Source of the DNA: Lacipirellulaceae bacterium
GTDB taxonomy: Bacteria > Planctomycetota > Planctomycetia > Pirellulales > Lacipirellulaceae
Length of the DNA stretch: 64,000 bases
NCBI GenBank assembly: GCA_040218535.1
Contig: JAVJRG010000010.1
Location: 248,001-312,000, forward strand
Direction: 5' to 3'
Shown here: positions 1 through 59,014 of the stretch, piece after piece
How positions within the stretch are numbered: position 1 is the stretch's first letter
Layout: each line of letters begins with the position of its first letter
Position numbers and translations under genes: made by a program
The notes under the pieces: generated by a model
The model's input: the letters and a program-made list of their open reading frames with translations, nothing else
Told to the model about the DNA's origin: nothing
Database searches by the model: none

Positions 1-446
1 CAATCTGTGCTGCCAATACACCCCAGCCCCTAGCAGGCACCTAAACAACCCAAACTGCGCACTGTTGCGCAATTGTTCCAAGTCAAACGAAAGAGTGAAT
101 TGGTATCTTTTTGGCGATGCAGATTTCCCAAAATCTGCTTGACTTTAGTCACTCAAAGCGAGACATTAAGATACATGGGTCGATGCTAGTACTAATGGAG
201 GTGTCGGCCACCTTCCGGAAGCTGGGAGCTTTCTGAGTTGCTTGGGAATATGTTGCAAATAGCAAAGTAGGGCAACGGAAATCCACGGTAGAGAAAGCCA
301 GGGATAGCGCGGGGCATGAGAATGCCGTTTCCAGACGCACCGTAACCCAGATGTCCATGTCGACGCCTACTTCCACGTGAGGTAGTCTCCTTCCCTGCGA
401 AGGAGTTGCGACGCTCAGAGCAACCTATCCAAGGAGGGACCTCATC
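1..446. other. Leader region without a convincing gene
   Basis: No open frame here has protein-like composition. The only long frame, on the minus strand at 149-376, has no domain and no good ribosome site. The right end is the leader of the csrA-receiver gene and is described separately. No clear sigma-70 or sigma-54 promoter could be fixed: a TTGACT at about 139 has no well-spaced -10 partner. Confidence 0.5.
387..439 (+). promoter_or_regulatory. Leader hairpin and GGA motifs ahead of the csrA fusion gene
   Basis: A perfect 7-bp stem (CTCCTTC at 387-393, GAAGGAG at 399-405) carries a GGA at 402-404. The ribosome site AAGGAGGGA at 431-439 contains two more GGA triplets, 8 to 16 bases ahead of the ATG. 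CsrA proteins classically bind GGA motifs in leader hairpins and at ribosome sites, so this could be an autoregulatory site. That role is inference; the hairpin and motifs are seen. Confidence 0.35.
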
Positions 447-1277
447 ATGCTGGTCCTGTCACGACGCTCGAAAGAGAAGCTGTCATTCCCCGAGTTGGGA
501 ATTACCGTCCATTTTCTACGAATCCAGTCAGGTGCCGTCAAAGTGGGGGTCGACGCTCCACCTTCCATTAAGATTGTCCGCGATGAAATTGCCGGTTCCG
601 GGAAGCAGGCTGAGGAAACTCGCCGACAACTCCTACGACTGCCCCGTGAGGTTCGCCACGATATCCGCAACGAACTTCACTCGATCAGCATTGGCTTGCA
701 TCTCTACCAAGAGCAGATGCGTGTCGGCGACGCCAAGGATGCTCAGGAAACCTTCGATGAGATCATGGCGGCGGTGCGTCGGCTTGATGAGAATGACGTA
801 TTGCAGCGCAAGCCTGAATCAAAAAAACCGATTTATCCTCGACTGAGCCAATTACCTGACGGCGAGGAATCCTCCTCCAACGATCGGAGCGTGGACAAGT
901 CAGCGAATCCCCGCATCCTGCTGGCCGAAGACGATGAGAATGAGCGAGAAATGCTAGCCGGATTCCTGCGGCTTGGTGGACTTGATGTCGACACCGTTGG
1001 TGATGGCGAACAAGCCGTCAACTACCTCAGCCAGAATCAACGTCCTGGACTTCTACTACTGGACATGAAAATGCCACTCTGCGATGGACCAGAAGTAGTA
1101 CGCTTTGTCAGGTCTCACGAGCAGCATCGCGATCTAACCATCTTCGGCGTCAGTGGCTCAACGCCCGAAGAAAATAATGTTGCGGTCGGGTCGCAGGGCG
1201 TTGATCGCTGGATCAGCAAGCCTCTCGACCCGCCAGGCCTGCTCAAGGCCGTACAAGAAACTGTGGTTAGCTGCTAG
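447..1277 (+). CDS. CsrA-like RNA-binding domain fused to a receiver domain
   Basis: The 276-residue protein has three parts. Residues 1-50 are a near-complete CsrA domain starting MLVLSRRSKEKL, keeping the early Arg and the IVRDEI segment that holds the RNA-contacting Arg of CsrA. Residues about 53-118 are helical; HDIRNELH from His71 resembles the H-box of a histidine kinase dimerisation (DHp) domain. Residues 156-276 are a receiver domain with acidic pair Asp162-Asp163, phospho-acceptor Asp206 in LLLLDMKMP, and Lys258 in SKP. There is no ATPase domain. A strong ribosome site, AAGGAGGG, precedes the ATG. CsrA normally works as a stand-alone dimer of about 60 residues. The fusion suggests that phosphorylation controls mRNA binding. 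Domain calls are firm; the DHp-like reading and the mechanism are inference. Confidence 0.85.
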   Translation: MLVLSRRSKEKLSFPELGITVHFLRIQSGAVKVGVDAPPSIKIVRDEIAGSGKQAEETRRQLLRLPREVRHDIRNELHSISIGLHLYQEQMRVGDAKDAQETFDEIMAAVRRLDENDVLQRKPESKKPIYPRLSQLPDGEESSSNDRSVDKSANPRILLAEDDENEREMLAGFLRLGGLDVDTVGDGEQAVNYLSQNQRPGLLLLDMKMPLCDGPEVVRFVRSHEQHRDLTIFGVSGSTPEENNVAVGSQGVDRWISKPLDPPGLLKAVQETVVSC

Positions 1278-57226: not shown

Positions 57227-59014
57227 ATGAGCTACCGCACCTTCAAACGAGCCCTCGGCGAAACGAGCCTGGAGAGGAAATGCCGACTGCTGTTTGGTGT
57301 TTTCTTATTGCTGCTGATCACCAGTTCCTTCTACTTCTACGCCTTAAAGACGAATGAAATCGTCTATGGCATGAATCGCTTCGTCGGTAAAGCGGTCGTT
57401 GATTCGATCATGACCGACGCTCATCGAAGTGTTTATGTCTCGAACAACGGTGCTTATATCGCAGATGTTGACGAGCAGGCCATCAACACGGAAATCAGTG
57501 AGACGTTACGCAGTGGGTCGTTCAAGTGGCAGATTCTTCACCCCAAAAACCCTGGCAACATCGGAAAACCGGCTGATGCATTTGAATGGGAGCTAATGGA
57601 CGATTGGGCTGCTGCCAGCGAGGCACTCAAGTCAGAGAATGATGTGAAGGACACCGATGAGAATATCAAGAAAGCGCTGGCAGACCCGGAGACTGTTTTC
57701 AGTCGCGAGAACTCAAGCGACGACGGCGAAACCTATCGCTACTATCAAGCGATCCATGCCAAATCAAGTTGCATGACCTGCCATAAGACTCTCAAACTAC
57801 CCGAAAAGCTTCCCTACTGGCCGGACTTGGAAGTGGGAGACCTGCTGGCTGTGGTTCGCGTCGACCTCGATGCCAAAGACACAAAGGCTGCCCGAGACCG
57901 CAATAATGCTTGGCTCTTGTTCCTCGGCATCGCGACCATGTTCTTTTCGATGGCCGCATTGTACATCATCGTCCGCTACGTCATTGTCAAACCGCTCGAA
58001 CACCTTCGCGATGTGTCGAACGCCGTCCGCCGCGGTGACGTTGAGCAGCGTGCGGACATTCACACGGGAGATGAGTTTGAAGAACTCGGTGCCGCTTTCA
58101 ACCGCATGTTGCGTCAGCTACTTCGTCAGCAGGATGAGCTCAAGGACATCAACTCCGAACTCGACGGGAAGCTTGATGAACTCGCTCAGGCCAACATGCG
58201 ATTGCATGAGATGAACCAACTCAAGAGCGACTTCCTCGCCACAGTCAGTCACGAGCTGCGTACGCCGCTCAACAGCATCATTGGCTTTAGTGATTTGCTG
58301 AAGAGTAATCCGCAACTCGAAGAGAAGTACCAACGCTACGCTTCGAACATTCAAACTTCAGGCAAGTCGTTGCTGGAAATGATCAACGACATTCTCGATT
58401 TGGCGAAAATTGAGAGCGGGCGGATGGAGCTGCGGCTAAGTGAATTCGACATTGGGTCGGTCGTCCTCACGCAATGCGACATGGCTCGTCCCTTGAGCGA
58501 GAAGAAACGGATCGAGCTCGACTGCGAGATCGCACCCGGCTTGCCACAGATGCACCAAGATCGGGGCAAACTCGAACAGATCCTCAACAACCTGCTTTCC
58601 AACGCCATTAAATTCACTCCTGACGGAGGCCGCATTCATGTTTCGGTACGACAAGATAGCCGCGGCGACCTGCGGCTGACAGTCATCGATACGGGGATTG
58701 GCATCAGCGAATCGGATCAGGTGACCATTTTCGATAAGTTCCGGCAGGGCACGACGGTTCTACCCGATGGCAACGCGATGACGCGTGAGTACTCCGGCAC
58801 AGGGTTGGGCCTCTCGATCGTGCGTGAGCTTTGTCGACTTTTGGGCGGAGACATCACGCTCGAAAGCGAGCTTGGCAACGGCAGCGAGTTCACGGTGATT
58901 TTACCTTGGAGCGTCACTGAGCATACCCGAATGGAGTCACCGCTGGCCGCTGAACTAAAGCAGCTTACGAAGCCGCGGTATGAGTCGGCAGTCGGCAGCT
59001 CTGCAGAGTTGTAA
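57227..59014 (+). CDS. Membrane sensor histidine kinase with haem-type CxxCH site
   Basis: The 595-residue kinase has two membrane helices (about residues 21-40 and 229-250) around a sensor domain of the DUF3365 (Tll0287-like) type. The sensor carries CMTCH at residues 182-186, a c-type haem site. HAMP covers about 251-303, then a coiled coil, the His box ATVSHELRTPLNSIIGFSD near 340, and an ATPase domain with LNNLLSNAIKFTPDGG, DTGIGISESD and GTGLGLSIVRELCRLLGG. It probably senses redox state, gas or a small ligand. No adjacent response regulator gene is present. Confidence 0.9.
   Translation: MSYRTFKRALGETSLERKCRLLFGVFLLLLITSSFYFYALKTNEIVYGMNRFVGKAVVDSIMTDAHRSVYVSNNGAYIADVDEQAINTEISETLRSGSFKWQILHPKNPGNIGKPADAFEWELMDDWAAASEALKSENDVKDTDENIKKALADPETVFSRENSSDDGETYRYYQAIHAKSSCMTCHKTLKLPEKLPYWPDLEVGDLLAVVRVDLDAKDTKAARDRNNAWLLFLGIATMFFSMAALYIIVRYVIVKPLEHLRDVSNAVRRGDVEQRADIHTGDEFEELGAAFNRMLRQLLRQQDELKDINSELDGKLDELAQANMRLHEMNQLKSDFLATVSHELRTPLNSIIGFSDLLKSNPQLEEKYQRYASNIQTSGKSLLEMINDILDLAKIESGRMELRLSEFDIGSVVLTQCDMARPLSEKKRIELDCEIAPGLPQMHQDRGKLEQILNNLLSNAIKFTPDGGRIHVSVRQDSRGDLRLTVIDTGIGISESDQVTIFDKFRQGTTVLPDGNAMTREYSGTGLGLSIVRELCRLLGGDITLESELGNGSEFTVILPWSVTEHTRMESPLAAELKQLTKPRYESAVGSSAEL

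Follow-up and report, generated by a model that had tools for sequence, protein, structure and literature searches.

Regulators of the CsrA/RsmA family are normally small, stand-alone proteins that are titrated by decoy small RNAs, and the transcription of these RNAs depends on a two-component system (BarA-UvrY). In well-studied bacteria it is only by this indirect route, via decoy small RNAs, that two-component systems reach CsrA. The relevant passage of a 2007 paper (PMC2222644), which cites Galperin 2006, names CsrA and ANTAR as RNA-binding output domains of response regulators, so by this account a CsrA-receiver fusion as such is already known. In planctomycetes, the CsrA COG was found to be enriched in the sigma54 regulon of Planctomycetia (2025 paper, PMC12316311). 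A third point of reference is the CckA-ChpT-CtrA relay, in which phosphate passes from a hybrid kinase through a DHp-type histidine to a terminal receiver, with DHp and receiver domains alternating (PMC9981736).

The window studied here, a 64,000-nucleotide stretch of DNA from a member of the Lacipirellulaceae, encodes a protein that combines elements of all these systems (Table 1). It has the full N-terminal CsrA domain of the CsrA/RsmA regulators, including the equivalents of R6, R44 and E46, and differs from them in that a receiver and a putative phosphotransfer hairpin are covalently attached. With the ANTAR class (AmiR, NasR, EutV) and the CsrA class of response regulators listed in PMC2222644 it shares the presence of a receiver and an RNA-binding domain in one protein; ANTAR proteins bind other RNA structures. 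Unlike the known RNA-binding response regulators, it has the CsrA domain first and a conserved DHp-like hairpin between CsrA and receiver. We know of no ANTAR protein with such a hairpin. Judged from sequence alone, the order of steps would be that of CckA-ChpT-CtrA, except that the hairpin and the terminal receiver belong to one protein and the output would be RNA binding instead of DNA binding. The open-licence literature, searched for CsrA fusions in planctomycetes, yielded no study of a CsrA-hairpin-receiver protein, and the conserved DHp hairpin, its pairing with hybrid kinases and the pattern of histidine loss reported below appear to be undescribed there.

Table 1. Coordinates of the features discussed in the text (window positions unless stated otherwise).
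Feature	Position	Strand	Details
3' end of CheB-CheR-PAS-HisKA-HATPase-receiver hybrid kinase gene	1..44	+	preceding gene
CsrA-DHp-like hairpin-receiver ORF	447..1277	+	276 aa, ATG start
CsrA domain (residues 1-49)	447..593	+	Pfam PF02599 48.2 bits, cut-off 27
DHp-like helical hairpin (~residues 60-117)	624..797	+	HisKA 0.0053; profile-profile 96.5%
His71, candidate phospho-acceptor	657..659	+	H in 123/148 relatives; aligns with kinase catalytic His
Asn75 (H+4), HisKA phosphatase position	669..671	+	N in 119/148 relatives
Receiver domain (residues 157-270)	915..1256	+	Pfam PF00072 1.5e-17, 64.2 bits, cut-off 30.2
Asp206, receiver phospho-acceptor	1062..1064	+	D in 145/148 relatives
Trp255 (switch aromatic position) to Lys258	1209..1220	+	W255 145/148, K258 138/148
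Second CsrA-X-receiver cluster	L044:6891-11895 = G000:C10:238890-243894		~9 kb before window

A three-part protein conserved within one class

The original prediction placed a CsrA domain, a helical segment and a complete receiver in a single reading frame. Such a frame was found exactly at 447-1277, with a putative ribosome-binding site (AAGGAGGG) a few bases 5' of its ATG and with His71, Asp206 and Lys258 where they had been located. Pfam detects CsrA (E = 1.1e-12, residues 1-49) and Response_reg (E = 1.5e-17, residues 157-270) in the protein, each above its curated cut-off, but no HATPase_c domain, no ANTAR domain, and no HPt (PF01627) match up to an E-value of 1. HATPase_c is likewise absent from the families matched by 108 relatives. 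An AlphaFold model built from the single sequence has helices at residues 67-93 and 96-115, but was set aside as evidence because of its low confidence (pLDDT 41).

A single-protein pattern search of genome contigs returned unrelated receivers only. Searching 60 related genomes yielded 24 full-length CsrA-hairpin-receiver proteins, and in a class-wide search the fusion was detected in 102 of 398 genomes (about a quarter), spread over several families. More relatives were added by an order-wide search, bringing the total to 148 full-length proteins, all of which were extracted with their flanks. Phylum-wide samples (294 and 199 genomes) gave no full-length match outside the window's own class, probably Planctomycetia. 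The search for this domain order that the original prediction had proposed was thus productive, and it also disposes of the concern that an assembly or sequencing frameshift had joined two genes: the three-part protein is an uninterrupted reading frame in many genomes, both in the set of 108 relatives and in that of 148.

The CsrA domain of the window protein aligns with solved CsrA structures, for example 1y00, and the arginines that contact RNA are at the expected positions. The domain has the contact residues L4, R6, R44 and E46 (E. coli numbering; R44 corresponds to R45 of the window protein). Fears that the RNA-contact positions might be missing proved groundless, with R6 present in 148/148, R45 in 147/148 and E47 in 143/148 relatives. 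On the other hand, the protein scores below the cut-offs of the classical CsrA equivalog TIGR00202 (39.0 versus 70.1 bits) and of NF002469 (37.3 versus 73 bits). The large shortfall against the former, together with the seven other CsrA-domain proteins of the genome, which have no receiver (about 70-160 aa, some with long C-terminal tails; loci among L001-L010), would suit a CsrA domain that acts as the N-terminal dimeriser of a phosphorelay shuttle and not as a working RNA-binding output. However, a pure dimeriser would have no need of the contact residues, and R6, R45 and an acidic residue (E/D) at position 47 are found together in 146 of the 148 relatives, making this reading very improbable.

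Relationship of the helical segment to HisKA hairpins

The description of the helical segment as DHp-like stands at the level of homology but not at that of a Pfam assignment. The HisKA match of the window protein (residues 68-114; E = 0.0053, 17.2 bits) falls below the cut-off of 26.9 bits, and HisKA is matched by 6 of 108 relatives at an E-value of 0.01. Profile-profile comparison with hhalign, by contrast, aligned the hairpin profile to the DHp profile of 90 neighbouring kinase ORFs at 96.5% (E = 7.5e-10), with His on His. The corresponding values were 0.4% for the reversed hairpin, 1.5% for an ATPase and 0.3% for a PAS control, and the best of 50 column-shuffled profiles reached 17.7%. On these comparisons, the segment is a DHp hairpin of the HisKA type that lacks an ATPase domain. 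It has in common with HisKA (PF00512) the H-box His, Arg at +3, Asn at +4, Leu at +6 and the length of the two helices, and differs in its missing ATPase domain, its missing +5 proline, the lack of a conserved +1 acid across the family and its score below the Pfam cut-off. The pseudo-kinase phosphotransferases ChpT and Spo0B consist of a DHp hairpin and a degenerate ATPase-like domain. No degenerate ATPase domain is present here, the hairpin being followed only by a linker and the receiver, and the likeness that we suggest to these proteins is one of working, not of family membership.

Conservation within the hairpin is concentrated on few positions. Asn75 is present in 116 of the 123 relatives with His71 and in 3 of the 25 without it. 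In the 92 His-bearing hairpins compared, the columns best conserved after H71 are L77 (90/92) and N75 (89/92). Most of the positions flanking H71 and N75 in the same helix are variable, and no other polar residue in the hairpin is as well conserved as these two. The equivalent H-box positions are exposed in HisKA domains. DHp hairpins are known to form dimers, and some relatives lacking both His71 and Asn75 retain a segment of hairpin length and a receiver, as would be expected if the hairpin were only a dimerisation element or spacer that keeps the CsrA and receiver dimers in register, with an allosteric receiver and no chemical role for His71. Pure dimerisation should conserve core positions, however, and the conservation of the exposed pair H71/N75 renders it improbable as the sole function. 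The near-invariance of these two residues, along with their loss beside kinases without a receiver (see below), favours a chemical role over dimerisation alone, and the hairpin may take phosphate itself instead of merely dimerising.

Neighbouring kinases and two kinds of receiver

The window receiver is complete, with Asp162, Asp206, Ser236 and Lys258. Among the 148 relatives, D162 is present in 140, D206 in 145, S/T236 in 142 and K258 in 138, and all four occur together in 136. The hybrid kinase encoded upstream of the window gene (1,355 aa; G000:C10:243977-248044) lies mostly before the window. Proximity to a kinase is a common feature of the family: a histidine kinase gene was found within 1.5 kb of 103 of the 148 relatives, whereas about 2-4% would be expected by chance, an estimate based on the 15-33 HisKA domains present in genomes of 5.2-7.8 Mb. 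Restricting the count to relatives flanked on either side by 4.5 kb or more of sequence gave 73/101. Sixty-six of the kinases are of the CheB-CheR type and 62 are on the same strand as the fusion gene. No kinase was detected within 1.5 kb of the other 45 relatives, some of which are at contig ends. Of the seven loci with a stand-alone CsrA in the source genome, none has a kinase in its 1.5-kb flanks, and the genome has only one recognisable HPt domain.

The receivers of the neighbouring hybrid kinases and those linked to CsrA differ in sequence. In the former, strand 4 ends in T/S, followed by G (85/86) and then mostly Y, and the switch position is His in 80/86; in the latter it is Trp in 145/148, meaning that the aromatic switch is kept. 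The intermediate receiver of CckA-type relays is recognised by an (S/T)-G-Y motif together with a variable switch position; other hybrid kinases, ShkA among them, do not have the motif, however (PMC9981736). By this analogy, the sequences fit a kinase receiver that is intermediate and a CsrA-linked receiver that is terminal. We also considered whether proteins of the window type might be recent partial copies of the adjacent kinase from which the ATPase domain was deleted. The data did not bear this out, the neighbour's receiver being the top-ranked one in just 2 of 84 cases.

Retention of His71 beside hybrid kinases

A kinase with a receiver of its own needs an intermediate histidine to pass phosphate on, while one without a receiver can reach Asp206 directly, and a relay therefore predicts that His71 will follow the type of the neighbouring kinase. 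With a hybrid kinase within 1.5 kb, His71 is kept in 86 of 87 relatives; with a receiver-less kinase it is lost in 12 of 15. The sole loss in the first group has Phe for His (IRFGVRNELP; L192:5965-11039); the neighbouring kinase ORF runs on for about 430 aa past its kinase domain, and this extension gives more than one receiver match. In all three of the His-keepers in the second group the nearest kinase is more than 900 bp away, and for one of them (L062) a hybrid kinase is also present at a greater distance. Several further losses of His71 are in genes without a nearby kinase. The raw Fisher p-value for His71 against hybrid kinase at 1.5 kb (4e-12) is inflated by relatedness and was set aside. 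On the tree, the His-less proteins beside non-hybrid kinases are mostly from one clade, and there are about three independent switches of H71 and kinase type, all in the predicted direction and one of them on well-supported branches; with so few switches the correlation does not reach significance when relatedness is taken into account.

The same data bear on a simpler scheme of direct two-component control, in which the neighbouring kinase phosphorylates Asp206 and the hairpin is a built-in phosphatase (H71/N75) and not a relay step. In HisKA proteins, the acid at H+1 is needed for kinase activity only, and Thr/Asn at H+4 for phosphatase activity only (PMC3510030). Asn75, which occupies the phosphatase position, is nearly always kept with His71 and rarely without it, whereas the kinase-specific acid at H+1 is present in 90/90 neighbouring kinases but in only 41/92 hairpins; similarly, Pro at +5 is found in 85/90 of the kinases and is not kept in the hairpins as a rule. 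Because the window protein itself has Asp72 at H+1, this argument applies to the family and not to the window copy, and lacking an ATPase domain the hairpin could not in any case act as a kinase by itself. Direct phosphorylation of Asp206 is also plausible beside non-hybrid kinases, where the relatives without His keep their receiver. Nevertheless, a phosphatase alone would account neither for the retention of His71 beside hybrid kinases and its loss beside non-hybrid ones, nor for the recipient of the phosphate from hybrid-kinase receivers that have no HPt partner. As a full explanation we regard it as rather unlikely, but it comes close to the relay reading, and since DHp hairpins are capable of both activities the two could operate together.

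Proposed phosphorelay

The reading that we prefer, with a probability of roughly 55%, is that the window protein is a CsrA-output response regulator with a built-in His phosphotransfer hairpin that serves the adjacent sensor hybrid kinase. Most likely, as far as the sequence comparisons indicate, this would be a His-Asp-His-Asp phosphorelay with its last two steps and the mRNA-binding output in one polypeptide. The hybrid kinase would autophosphorylate on its own His, and the phosphate would move first to the Asp of the kinase's C-terminal receiver, then to His71 of the hairpin and finally to Asp206 of the same protein as His71 or of its dimer partner. The phosphorylation state of the receiver would in turn alter the binding of the CsrA dimer to mRNA leaders. 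With Asn75, the hairpin might also strip phosphate from a receiver, which would allow the signal to drain back. The sequences themselves show how the domains are arranged, which residues are conserved, that the hairpin is homologous to DHp domains, that no ATPase domain is attached and that kinase genes lie nearby; the flow of phosphate, the direction of its effect on RNA, the dimer geometry and the targets are what we infer. Conservation of the receiver active site, of the H71/N75 hairpin and of a mostly hybrid kinase neighbour gives good support to the idea that mRNA binding is under phosphorelay control, although CsrA as the output of a receiver is not in itself new.

Extended to the family, the proposal is of a phosphorelay found across members of the class, in which a phosphotransfer His, a terminal receiver and a CsrA mRNA-binding output are united in a single protein that receives phosphate from a CheB-CheR hybrid kinase encoded next to it, environmental signals control translation directly and without decoy RNAs, and the His step has been discarded more than once beside receiver-less kinases. 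We hold this broader version more tentatively, at slightly under even odds. If true, the covalent union of CsrA, phosphotransfer hairpin and receiver with a sensor kinase would amount to direct phospho-control of translation, and bacteria with such proteins may switch mRNA control straight from a sensor instead of via decoy RNAs. Naturally occurring forms that have kept or lost the relay His would also provide material for studying how phosphorelays gain and lose steps.

Paralogues and further observations

The source genome has ten CsrA domains, three of which are in CsrA-hairpin-receiver proteins, namely the window protein and two paralogues. One paralogue, without the His, belongs to the second cluster of Table 1, upstream of the hybrid kinase, where the CsrA-X-receiver gene is followed by a lone receiver encoded on the opposite strand and by a second CheB-CheR kinase of 1,120 aa that has no receiver. 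Tandem double systems of this kind are also present at L148, L149, L153 and L181. In the relatives at L176:13575-14144 and L182:4752-5309 (about 186-190 aa) and at L218:12357, the H-box part of the hairpin is skipped; each is near a receiver-less CheB-CheR kinase. Elsewhere in the window, positions 58223-58420 lie in a separate 604-aa ORF and encode a HisKA domain with a strong match (6.3e-23). The YTV repeat family is represented in a neighbouring gene, in line with the class being Planctomycetia. The third paralogue, of the CsrA-DHp-receiver type (L045:4178-8461), has no kinase nearby and adjoins a gene for a 1,007-aa protein with Flagellin_IN repeats (hook/filament cap type).
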